The notes under the pieces: generated by a model
The model's database searches: none
What the model saw: the letters and a program-made list of their open reading frames with translations, nothing else
What the model was told of the DNA's origin: nothing
Part shown: positions 57,351 through 59,387 of the stretch, in pieces
How the letters are laid out: every line of letters starts with the position of its first letter
How positions within the stretch are numbered: position 1 is the first letter of the stretch
Assembly (NCBI GenBank): GCA_001306305.2
Contig: CP155577.1
Span: 186,001 to 250,000, forward strand
Reading direction: 5' to 3'
DNA from: Citromicrobium bathyomarinum
GTDB taxonomy: Bacteria > Pseudomonadota > Alphaproteobacteria > Sphingomonadales > Sphingomonadaceae
Length of the DNA: 64,000 nucleotides
Made by a program: the position numbers and the translations under genes

Positions 57351-57594
57351 AAGTCGAGAGAACCTCTTCTGCCGTTCGCGCAGGAACGAAGGCAAAAGGC
57401 CCTCGCCACGCGCGAGTCATGAAAAATATCGCTGCACGAGGGGAACAGGCCATGACGCGGGCGGCATATCGGCAGGCGCACCATGCGTCTGCCGTTGGGG
57501 TCATACCGCCGCGAGGGTCTGGCCGCGCCGCTTCCTTCCCGGGATCCGAATCTCGCGCGTGATTCGGCCTTGCTCGAAGCTGACGTGTCCGCGC

Positions 57595-57623
57595 CATATA
57601 GGAATCTGCACGCCAAGTGTCAA
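57595..57623 (-). promoter_or_regulatory. near-consensus σ70 promoter for rpoBC
   Basis: On the minus strand, TTGACA (57623-57618) and TATATG (57600-57595) are separated by exactly 17 bp. A leader of about 240 nt would run to the rpoB ATG. AT-rich sequence upstream of the -35 (AAACGAAAAATTCCCC) could act as an UP element. Confidence 0.75.
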
Positions 57624-57642
57624 AGGCAGGGGGAATTTTTCG

Positions 57643-57743
57643 TTTATCGATCAGGGATTTATCGTTTTTCGATATTTATCGATTGACGATAAGTGCGGGC
57701 GGGATTATTGAATATCGATATCGGACAACAAGGAGATCGATAA
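57643..57743. promoter_or_regulatory. TTATCG operator array between rpoBC and the DUF2975 operon
   Basis: Seven TTATCG-type elements occur in 100 bp: TTATCGAT (57644), TTATCG (57659), TTTCGATA (57667), TTATCGAT (57676), CGATAA (57687), the palindrome ATATCGATAT (57712-57721) and ATCGATAA (57736-57743). The 4th and 5th form a perfect TTATCG-ATTGA-CGATAA palindrome (57676-57692). It overlaps a TTGACG -35 (57683-57688) that lies 17 bp from a weak TATTGA -10 (57706-57711), reading into the operon. I infer binding by the Xre regulator encoded at 58691. The rest of the 393-bp gap is the rpoB leader and holds no gene I can support. Confidence 0.65.
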
Positions 57744-57881
57744 ATGACCGACACCGCCAAACACATCACCGCCGCTCTTGCCGCGATCATCATCGCCGCC
57801 ACCAGCATGACCGCCGTGGTCACCGTGCCGCCCGCCGAAGACGGCATGGTTGCCACCGTCCACACGATCGAAGTCGCCTGA
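57744..57881 (+). CDS. 45-residue hydrophobic mini-protein A (TVPPA motif)
   Basis: Begins MTDTAKHITAALAAIIIAAT. It has one hydrophobic stretch (residues about 8-27), followed by SMTAVVTVPPAEDG and a short tail. AAGGAG lies 8 bp before the ATG, and it is the first gene behind the TTATCG array. The core matches the next ORF at 12 of 17 positions. I know no function; it could be an exported or membrane peptide. Confidence 0.72.
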   Translation: MTDTAKHITAALAAIIIAATSMTAVVTVPPAEDGMVATVHTIEVA

Positions 57882-57919
57882 TCCGGCGCCCCGACACCTT
57901 CAGAACAGAAAGCCCCATC

Positions 57920-58072
57920 ATGCCCAAGCTTGCCCAGAACCTCCTCGTCCTCACCGTCGCCGTGCTGGTCGCCGGTACCAGCCTGACCGCGATCACCACC
58001 GTGCCGCCCGCACAGGATGGCACCGCCACCGCCTACGCCAACCTCTCGCACAGCCCGCAAGAGCTGGCCTGA
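57920..58072 (+). CDS. 50-residue hydrophobic mini-protein B (TVPPA motif)
   Basis: Begins MPKLAQNLLVLTVAVLVAGT and continues SLTAITTVPPAQDG with a polar tail. It is a paralogue of mini-protein A, 38 bp downstream, with the hydrophobic stretch and the TVPPAxDG core in the same order. No strong Shine-Dalgarno is seen. The duplication of such a small gene in one operon argues that the peptides are used rather than chance ORFs. Confidence 0.7.
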   Translation: MPKLAQNLLVLTVAVLVAGTSLTAITTVPPAQDGTATAYANLSHSPQELA

Positions 58073-58127
58073 CCCGACACCCGACGCCCGCCCCCACCAT
58101 GGGGCCCGACAACAGGGGAGAACCATC

Positions 58128-58691
58128 ATGACCAATGCCCTCAACGATCCGCTGCTGCTCATCGGCAAGATCTTCTGCATCTTCCTCCAGGCCGTCATGG
58201 CGCTCGCCACAATCGCCCTCGGCATCGCAATTCCCGTGATTATCTTCGCGCAAGGGACGATCCAGGCGGAAATCGCCAAGGAACTGCCCGGCATGACCGA
58301 GCAATTCCCCGGCCTGTTGATCGCCGCGATCATGGCCATCGGCCTCGCGATCGTCGCCATGCTGTTCGTCTTTTTCGGCAAGCTGCGCCGGATCATCGGC
58401 ACGGTCGGCGAAGGCGACCCCTTCCAGCCGCAGAACGCCACACGGCTGAGCCAGATGGGCTGGCTGATGCTGGGCACGCAGCTGGTCGTCATCCCCGCCG
58501 GATTCATCGTCATGCAGCTGGCGAACTACGCCGACGCGATCGAGAAGGCCGGCGCAAAGGACTTCCACATGTCCTTCGACGATGGCGGGTTCGATATGAC
58601 CGCGCTGCTGCTGACCGTGATCCTGTTCATCCTCGCCCGCGTGTTCCGCCACGGTGCCGCGATGCGCGAAGATCTGGAAGGAACCGTGTGA
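58128..58691 (+). CDS. DUF2975 membrane protein
   Basis: A 187-residue protein with four membrane helices (about 16-40, 62-84, 111-131, 157-174). The DUF2975 signature GEGDPFQPQNATRLSQMGW lies between helices 2 and 3. GGGGAG lies 8 bp before the ATG at 58128. The family is nearly always found beside a small YozG-type Xre regulator, as here, with the stop overlapping the next start (TGATG). The molecular role of the family is unknown. Confidence 0.9.
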   Translation: MTNALNDPLLLIGKIFCIFLQAVMALATIALGIAIPVIIFAQGTIQAEIAKELPGMTEQFPGLLIAAIMAIGLAIVAMLFVFFGKLRRIIGTVGEGDPFQPQNATRLSQMGWLMLGTQLVVIPAGFIVMQLANYADAIEKAGAKDFHMSFDDGGFDMTALLLTVILFILARVFRHGAAMREDLEGTV

Positions 58692-58939
58692 TGCCCCCCT
58701 CCCCCGACACTCCCGACGGAGCTGCCATCATGGTGAAACTGGACGACCTGCTGCACGAACGCCGCATGACCCTGACCGAACTGGCCGAGCGAGTCGGCAT
58801 GACGCTGGCCAACCTCTCCATCCTCAAGACCGGCAAGGCCAAGGCGATCCGCTTCTCCACGCTCGAGGCAATCTGCCGCGAACTGGAATGCCAGCCGGGC
58901 GACCTGCTCGCCTACGACACCCGCAGCGAAACCGCCTGA
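58691..58939 (+). CDS. YozG-like Xre/Cro-family transcriptional regulator
   Basis: An 82-residue protein that is almost only a helix-turn-helix: VKLDDLLHERRMTLTELAER, VGMTLANLSILKTGKAKAIR and FSTLEAICRELECQPGDLLA. This is the small Cro/C1-like group that accompanies DUF2975 proteins. AAGGAA lies 7 bp before the ATG at 58691; an in-frame ATG at 58730 with GGAG is an alternative. As the last gene of the operon it is a good candidate for autoregulation through the TTATCG array, by inference. Confidence 0.9.
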   Translation: MPPSPDTPDGAAIMVKLDDLLHERRMTLTELAERVGMTLANLSILKTGKAKAIRFSTLEAICRELECQPGDLLAYDTRSETA

Positions 58940-59138
58940 ACCCGCGCGCGAAGCTCCCTGCACGCCCATCCGCACGGGAGCTTCGCCTTTCCCTCCAAGG
59001 CAGCCGATCCAGAGAAACACGCTAAGTCCCTGAACAATATTGCTTGGCGCGGGAACCGTGATGGAGCATGGGCGGTTGCCACCAAATCCGAATGCCGGGG
59101 GAATGGTCCCCCGGATCGAGAAAACAGGGGGAATTACC

Positions 59139-59387
59139 TTGAAGAAGATCATCGCAACCGCCGCCATCGCCACCTTCGCGCTCTCGCTCGCCGCATGTAA
59201 CGGTGCCAACGAAGAAGCCGGCGAACAGGCCGACGACGTCACCGAAGCGCAGGGCGAAGTCCTCGACGCGCAGTCGGGCGTGACCGAAGCCCAGGCCGAT
59301 CTGGCCGAAGAAAAGGGCGACGAAGCCACTGCCGAGCAGCTTGAAGAAAAGGCTGACCAGCAGGAAGAAACCGCCGACGAGATGTAA
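59139..59387 (+). CDS. small acidic coiled-coil lipoprotein
   Basis: An 82-residue protein beginning at TTG (59139), with GGGGG 8 bp upstream. The lipobox is LAAC (FALSLAACNGANEEAGEQAD). The mature part is very acidic, with QADDVTEAQGEVLDAQSGVT and EAQADLAEEKGDEATAEQLE-type heptads that predict a helical coiled coil. No named family. It is followed 30 bp later by a strong terminator and is probably a single-gene unit, as 199 bp separate it from the Xre gene. Confidence 0.8.
   Translation: MKKIIATAAIATFALSLAACNGANEEAGEQADDVTEAQGEVLDAQSGVTEAQADLAEEKGDEATAEQLEEKADQQEETADEM

Follow-up and report, generated by a model that had tools for sequence, protein, structure and literature searches.

Mini-proteins at the head of a conserved, probably self-controlled DUF2975-Xre operon in Sphingomonadales

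Introduction

Why should a bacterium encode two very small, mutually similar proteins, a membrane protein of the DUF2975 family and an Xre-type regulator in a single operon behind a dense array of short repeats? This arrangement occurs in a 64 kb stretch of DNA (hereafter the window) that lies inside the 3.3 Mb single-contig genome of an Erythrobacter-group bacterium, where an earlier note had taken the Xre protein to repress its own operon through the array and the peptides to be exported or membrane effectors.

One half of the operon belongs to a recognised arrangement. YoaS of Bacillus is a DUF2975 protein, and YoaS/YozG is the Bacillus version of a DUF2975 protein paired with an HTH_26 Xre regulator. 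According to the passages of Makarova et al. 2009 that deal with such pairs (PMC2701414), YoaS-like membrane proteins stand beside Xre regulators with a table count of 32, and were left out of the toxin-antitoxin predictions on the ground that membrane components were unknown in type II systems. A passage of PMC4326333 also mentions yozG. The DUF2975-Xre pair has hence been known, as YoaS-like, since 2009. DUF2975 itself is widespread (we found it in 5 of 14 control genomes, including those of Bacillus subtilis and Caulobacter), and the literature we searched yielded no characterised function for it. What the two mini-proteins and the repeats add to this pair is the question addressed here.

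Results

Gene content and setting of the operon

Located between minus-strand rpoB and the ribosomal protein genes rplJ/rplL (named by recognition of their translations), the operon is followed by two further ORFs. Its four genes are all on the plus strand. Mini-protein 1 (57744..57881) has 45 residues, one hydrophobic segment, the motif TVPPAEDG and a tail ending in EVA; mini-protein 2 (57920..58072), its paralogue, has 50 residues, a tail ending in ELA and no clear Shine-Dalgarno sequence. They are followed by the DUF2975 membrane protein (58128..58691), with 187 residues, four hydrophobic segments and the C-terminal end MREDLEGTV, and by the YozG-like Xre/HTH_26 regulator (58691..58939). 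The coordinates and gene order given for this locus before agree with the ORFs, their translations and Pfam, and the 12 of 17 identical residues claimed for the two mini-proteins hold by eye (AATSMTAVVTVPPAEDG / AGTSLTAITTVPPAQDG). Against Pfam, the DUF2975 protein scores 52.4 bits with PF11188 (cut-off 27) and the Xre protein 78 bits with HTH_26 (cut-off 22). As in YoaS/YozG, therefore, genes of these two families are adjacent, and the locus belongs among the DUF2975-YozG pairs. By DUF2975 similarity, the closest records with a species name are those of Alteriqipengyuania abyssalis (93%) and Citromicrobium bathyomarinum (91%).

The overlap TGATG by which the earlier note joined DUF2975 to Xre is present at 58689-58693, but it provides just one of two possible Xre starts. 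The alternative, an ATG at 58730, has its own Shine-Dalgarno sequence (GACGGAG) and marks where the conserved part of Xre begins; some relatives have just a short leader after TGATG, others a longer one with an inner start. Downstream of the operon, a 115-aa ORF (59040-59387) has by eye a lipoprotein-like N-terminus and acidic repeats, and matches no Pfam family above cut-off.

Three palindromes over a candidate promoter

Upstream of the genes, what had been described as an array of TTATCG elements is more aptly read as three TTATYG-N5-CRATAA palindromes, with operators 1 and 3 off by one end base, plus extra half-sites; the dense clustering and the placement of a palindrome on the -35 box stand. 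Operator 1 (TTATCG-TTTTT-CGATAT, 57659..57675) is situated slightly upstream of the -35, operator 2 (57676..57692) is a perfect 6-5-6 palindrome, TTATCG-ATTGA-CGATAA, that contains the probable -35 (TTGACG, 57683..57688, plus strand), and operator 3 (TTATTG-AATAT-CGATAT, 57705..57721) contains the probable -10 (TATTGA, 57706..57711, plus strand), 17 bp further on. Both boxes were assigned by eye: a strict sigma-70 scan of 57400-59200 returned no promoter, so that TTGACG-17-TATTGA (57683-57711) is our own reading. Nine TATCG/CGATA pentamers fall within 57645-57742, five of them inside full TTATCG/CGATAA hexamers. Among the half-sites, CGATAA at 57738..57743 lies between the Shine-Dalgarno sequence and the start codon of mini-protein 1, and an isolated TTATCG (57644..57649, plus strand) upstream of the array is recognisable by eye in 6 of 8 loci of the genus, being absent from two (L014, L023). 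The scan of 57400-59200 revealed no terminator-like site, and the operon region has no match in Rfam.

Is the array unusual for this DNA? Enrichment of TTATCG as such can be rejected, with 15 copies in the window against 12.8 expected. The palindrome, with one mismatch allowed, occurs 3 times in the window against 1.7 expected, and 22 of 100 shuffles reach 3. Given the lack of TTATCG enrichment, the case rests on clustering and on exact palindromes: all three palindromes found in the one-mismatch search are exact matches, and none of 20000 first-order Markov sequences, generated from a model of the 106-bp segment itself, reached three.

The operator across genomes

In the whole 3.3 Mb genome the core TATYG-N5-CRATA occurs 4 times, 3 of them in the operon promoter, and the reversed control pattern 0 times. 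A search of the same genome with two mismatches allowed proved uninformative (76 matches against 55 for the control). Across ten genomes of the genus, one of them from the same species, the three operon sites are present in nine, and each genome has 0-4 operator-core sites elsewhere. No such site recurs among these genomes save two, shared by a pair of close species (G003/G007); with the reversed control, six of the ten genomes have no match, three have 1-2 and one (G008) has 8. Judged by these sites, Xre appears to control mainly the genes of its own operon.

A stricter double-operator pattern matches 109 of 396 genomes of the order; among the matches listed the reverse control has 0, and the double operator is single in each genome except one (G066), which has two. 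Thirty double-operator loci were examined, and DUF2975 and Xre are present in 30/30, an HMM-detected mini-ORF in 28/30. The second double operator of G066 (L211, G066:C1 near 576890) stands before another gene, a 235-aa ORF running away from the operator and resembling, by eye, a CPBP-type membrane protein.

For promoter architecture we compared 104 distinct operons, all with a mini-protein. Most have three operators (71), the remainder two (21), one (6) or four (6), spaced mostly by 16 or 17 bp and then by 29 or 40. In the window, the spacing between operators 1 and 2 is the commonest among relatives (16-17 bp), and the 29-bp spacing of operators 2 and 3 was counted 45 times in the 104 promoters. 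Of the 104, 100 have TTGAC within an operator, and 73 have a further CGATA half-site that abuts the start codon. As to the TTATCG element named in the earlier note, sites are indeed kept beside DUF2975/Xre in relatives, but the half-sites TATCG and TATTG are about equally common there, as the consensus of the 45 promoters with 16/17-29 spacing makes plain.

Outside the order, we considered the 27 best-scoring DUF2975 loci of the class. Xre follows DUF2975 in 26 of them; in the 27th, the script recovered Xre without a DUF2975 frame on its strand. The exact operator core occurs at 11 of the 26 loci and is lacking at 15, with several of the others carrying a different palindrome at a similar place.

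Distribution and duplication of the mini-proteins

An HMM built from 31 mini-protein sequences was run against the 396 genomes of the order. At E<=0.01 it matches in 112, but weak matches are unreliable. At E<=1e-4 there are 97 matches in 95 genomes (counted by hand), with two each in the window genome and in G001. A script that considered one locus per genome confirmed, for 91 of the 95, the succession mini-protein, DUF2975, Xre behind one or more operators; in the other four (L186, L189, L191, L192) the mini-protein stands before a PspC gene. Both the mini-ORFs and the operators are thus conserved beside DUF2975/Xre in related genomes, the lack of which the earlier note had held would refute it. 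The 17 genomes with matches only above 1e-4 were dropped, many of these matches lying inside long ORFs; two of them, G052 (L126) and G390 (L193), do carry the cassette. A second set, of named genomes picked for their DUF2975 similarity and in part shared with the first, comprised 80 loci. Xre is directly downstream in 80/80 and at least one operator is present in 80/80; the HMM detects a mini-ORF in 76/80, three more have a divergent one by eye, and one (L304) has none.

Duplicated mini-proteins, as in the window, are real but a minority state, a single mini-protein being usual. The HMM finds a pair in six genomes that belong to the genus of the window (L001, L009, L014, L024, L025, L031) and in one MAG (L248), and two loci of the genus (L035, L023) have a single copy. 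Two further loci (L089, L308) have two pieces at the same distances, which in L089 represent one ORF broken by an in-frame stop, the DUF2975 and Xre matches there being intact. In another genus, two candidate small ORFs that the HMM missed can be seen by eye before DUF2975 (L204, L205).

The slot in front of DUF2975 may also hold something other than an HMM-detected protein. In the genus of the PspC-linked genomes, all 16 operator-selected loci have an ORF of 41-68 aa in the slot, with a similar layout but missed by the HMM. Its distance from operator 3 is 38 bp at 11 of these loci, 36 bp at one (L203) and 14 bp at four; L204 and L205, with their two small ORFs each, belong to this genus. Two of the PspC-linked genomes themselves, G364 and G210, have in addition a DUF2975 cassette whose small ORF is divergent (L206, L208). 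Elsewhere there is no room for a mini-ORF although operators, DUF2975 and Xre are kept (L122/L213, which represent one genome, and L125), and a small hydrophobic ORF in front is absent from 22 of the 26 loci outside the order. Taken together, these cassettes and outside loci indicate that the core does not need the mini-protein. Two loci of the same class outside the order (L336, L342) have a different small hydrophobic ORF, LNxxLLAAxPTALVAxLxQ, before DUF2975, possibly of independent origin. There is also an orphan mini-protein (L194, E 1.9e-4); the 2.6 kb examined at this locus contain neither an operator nor DUF2975 or Xre.

Sequence and selection

The family consists of proteins of 36-53 aa with a hydrophobic segment, encoded before DUF2975-Xre; the window copies, ending in VA and LA, fit this description. 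Among 106 distinct mini-proteins (three sequences shorter than 36 aa, namely the two pieces of L089 and one from L130 for which no start was found, were left out), 104 have a C-terminal Ala, 100 end in [LIVM]A, and 104 have a Pro at residues 25-34. The net charge over residues 2-10 is +1 in 75, and K/R occurs beyond residue 30 in 10. The predicted outer tail mostly comprises 13-17 residues and ends in an aliphatic residue followed by Ala. Reading topology, here as for DUF2975, from hydrophobicity and charge, these features fit a protein with its N-terminus inside, one helix and its tail outside, either anchored or cleaved, and so support the membrane or export character proposed before, as far as sequence features go.

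Purifying selection at the protein level is evident for the mini-ORFs as a family, the median dN/dS being 0.30 in 99 pairs that match in length and are no less than 60% identical, but it is weak for mini-protein 2. Substitution patterns speaking against protein selection, the other outcome that by the earlier note would refute it, were thus not seen for the family. In comparison with two members of the genus, mini-protein 1 has 0 and 1 nonsynonymous changes against 5 and 7 synonymous ones. The corresponding values for mini-protein 2 are 7.5 and 6.5 against 4.5 and 3.5; with dN/dS of 0.63 and 0.73 it is much less constrained than mini-protein 1.

Database searches gave little. Mini-protein 1 has no Pfam match and mini-protein 2 a sub-cut-off match to PTCRA (E 0.013); NCBIfam has no match for either, and in PHROGs mini-protein 1 matches one family of unknown function (E 0.0014). 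Among the anti-phage systems of PADLOC there is no match for the mini-proteins or DUF2975, and two weak HTH matches for Xre (capH, 2.9e-5; HTH_VI, 4.7e-4). Among solved structures, DUF2975 has no relative at E<=0.1 and Xre one remote match. The earlier view that the pairing of such peptides with this module is undescribed accords with our searches of Pfam, NCBIfam, PHROGs and the literature, in which we found no description of it.

Conservation along the operon is highly uneven. Averaged over pairs of the 104 operons, identity amounts to 0.91 in the Xre core, 0.84 in the DUF2975 C-tail, 0.62 in the loop between DUF2975 helices 2 and 3 (predicted to be cytosolic) and 0.63 in helix 4. It is 0.30-0.33 in the other helices, 0.35 in the mini-protein, and 0.19 and 0.21 in the two predicted outer loops, the helix borders having been set by us from the sequence. 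A fixed side predicted to face Xre and a free outer side are what one would expect if DUF2975 were the membrane partner of Xre and its sensing side varied. Note that the DUF2975 end LEGTV also encodes the Shine-Dalgarno sequence of xre, from which part of its conservation may come. Co-diversification of the mini-protein and the outer loops is not supported, since the partial correlation of their divergence (0.17) hardly exceeds that for the helices (0.14) or the cytosolic parts (0.11). Three loci (L104, L111, L197) have two tandem DUF2975 genes before one Xre.

Mini-proteins in front of PspC genes

In the four genomes of another genus where an HMM-matching mini-protein precedes PspC (L186, L189, L191, L192), the promoter type and the membrane partner differ from those of our operon: a sigma-54-like TTGGCACG site replaces the operator promoter. 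When the HMM was made from DUF2975-linked mini-proteins only, these four still scored E 1.4e-7 to 1.2e-4 among 2693 ORFs, and PF04024 matches the L186 PspC protein with 56.4 bits. A second similar small ORF lies downstream in L186. PspC was recognised by script at 18 of 31 PspC loci, and a small ORF of this kind at 6 of the 18. The proteins of the operon in the window have no Psp domain in the Pfam scan.

The window's own genome has two such arrangements (PspC identified by Pfam, PspA and PspB by recognition). In L215 (G000:C1 near 3197894-3198600, minus strand), three tandem ORFs of 37-45 aa, one inside a longer frame, precede a 71-aa PspC protein behind a sigma-54-like site; in L216 (G000:C1 near 2316600-2318222, plus strand), a 44-aa ORF precedes PspA-, PspB- and PspC-like genes, again with a sigma-54-like site. 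Their scores against the mini-protein HMM are insignificant (E 0.9-1.1 for L215, 6.4 for the L216 frame), so that these ORFs resemble the mini-proteins by layout only.

Discussion

The operon is real, conserved and probably self-controlled. Starting from gene order, protein-level selection, operator architecture and the near-unique location of the operator, all of which come from comparison, we infer a largely self-contained, autorepressed module for membrane sensing, to which we assign a probability of roughly 55%. Xre, presumably as a dimer on each TTATYG-N5-CRATAA, would cover the -35 and the probable -10 and repress its own operon. DUF2975 would act as its membrane partner, the cytosolic loop and C-tail holding Xre at the membrane or altering its binding to DNA, and sensing on the outer side would release or alter Xre and turn the operon on. 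The mini-protein, as the first product, would work in the same membrane, most likely as a ligand or brake of DUF2975, or else as a small protein of membrane stress. The regulatory half of this reading is a well-supported prediction: autoregulation through the array, as proposed before, is the natural reading of operators that are conserved and so placed. For the mini-protein, input to a membrane sensor is the leading reading.

How does the module compare with known systems? The passages on YoaS-like proteins in PMC2701414 mention neither a mini-protein nor an operator array; here both are present. In the LytTR systems HdrRM and BrsRM, as portrayed in parts of PMC6193735, a regulator is coupled to a transmembrane inhibitor and regulates itself through repeats in its own promoter. 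There, however, activation goes through direct repeats upstream of the -35; the palindromes of our operon lie over the -35 and the probable -10, which suggests repression. Operator 1 lies upstream of the -35, direct repeats in that position are absent, and with its HTH_26 regulator the operon is no LytTR system. As an alternative to repression, Xre may activate its own operon. A membrane inhibitor of an Xre protein was not found in the literature searched. YohP of E. coli, a very small, stress-induced membrane protein whose synthesis, in the relevant part of PMC12719787, raises PspA and PspC, is alike in general description. The main text of the 2024 Psp survey PMC11237479 names neither DUF2975 nor Sphingo-. 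The mini-protein family and the operator layout, for which the literature and databases searched hold no description, may thus be unrecognised.

The main rival reading of the mini-protein takes its cue from B. subtilis, where, according to portions of PMC11995493 and PMC6818787, the autorepressor SdpR is bound by a polytopic membrane partner, SdpI, and SdpC is a hydrophobic exported toxin. The toxin operon sdpABC is there separate from sdpRI, and the regulator of our operon is of the HTH_26 type. Imagine that the mini-protein were a toxic peptide, DUF2975 its antidote and sensor, and Xre the repressor that keeps both off. A small hydrophobic first gene, a polytopic membrane gene and a probable autorepressor are what one would expect, a variable peptide would sit well with variable outer loops, the authors of PMC2701414 raise the possibility, in the passages on YoaS-like/Xre pairs, that these are novel systems, and the second double operator of L211 stands before a gene that by eye looks CPBP-type. 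Yet there is no processing or export gene in the operon; DUF2975 has no SdpI match in Pfam at E<=1; and DUF2975 and Xre persist without the mini-protein. Nor would one expect a toxin to be under purifying selection as strong as that on mini-protein 1 (though mini-protein 2 is not), or its relatives to stand before PspC genes. We regard this reading as rather unlikely.

The mini-protein might alternatively be the precursor of a signal, which signal peptidase would cleave behind a PPAxA-like site to yield a short peptide ending in -LA that DUF2975 senses. The fixed C-terminus, variable sequence and positive N-terminus are compatible with this, as is an AxA-like motif within 10 residues of the first Pro in 91 of 106 sequences, a loose pattern counted without a null in alanine-rich tails. 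The window copies, however, with PPAEDG and PPAQDG, have no good AxA site by eye, and a signal that seems to target nothing but its own operon would be hard to understand unless it had some other mode of action. We find the idea improbable. It is very improbable that the mini-ORFs are mere leaders that set DUF2975 translation or attenuation. They are first in the operon, short and near the promoter, and mini-protein 2 has no clear Shine-Dalgarno sequence and weak constraint; but the median dN/dS of the family and the near-zero value of mini-protein 1 within the genus, the conserved C-terminal Ala, the missing terminator-like site and Rfam match, and the related mini-ORFs before the unrelated PspC gene all argue against it.

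If, as in the leading reading, the mini-protein is an input to a membrane sensor, a broader and still tentative possibility is a new class of envelope sensor, in which a dedicated small single-helix protein, with an outer tail and a fixed aliphatic-Ala end, feeds a DUF2975 antirepressor of an Xre that mainly targets its own operon, and a small protein of this kind feeds PspC in sigma-54 operons. That the small-protein family also precedes PspC would connect an uncharacterised module to envelope stress and, if the broader idea is true, two unrelated circuits of envelope stress in Sphingomonadales would draw on a single small-protein family. With an operator defined by comparison, an apparent regulon of about one operon and a small-protein family as its first product, the function of the module should be readily testable.
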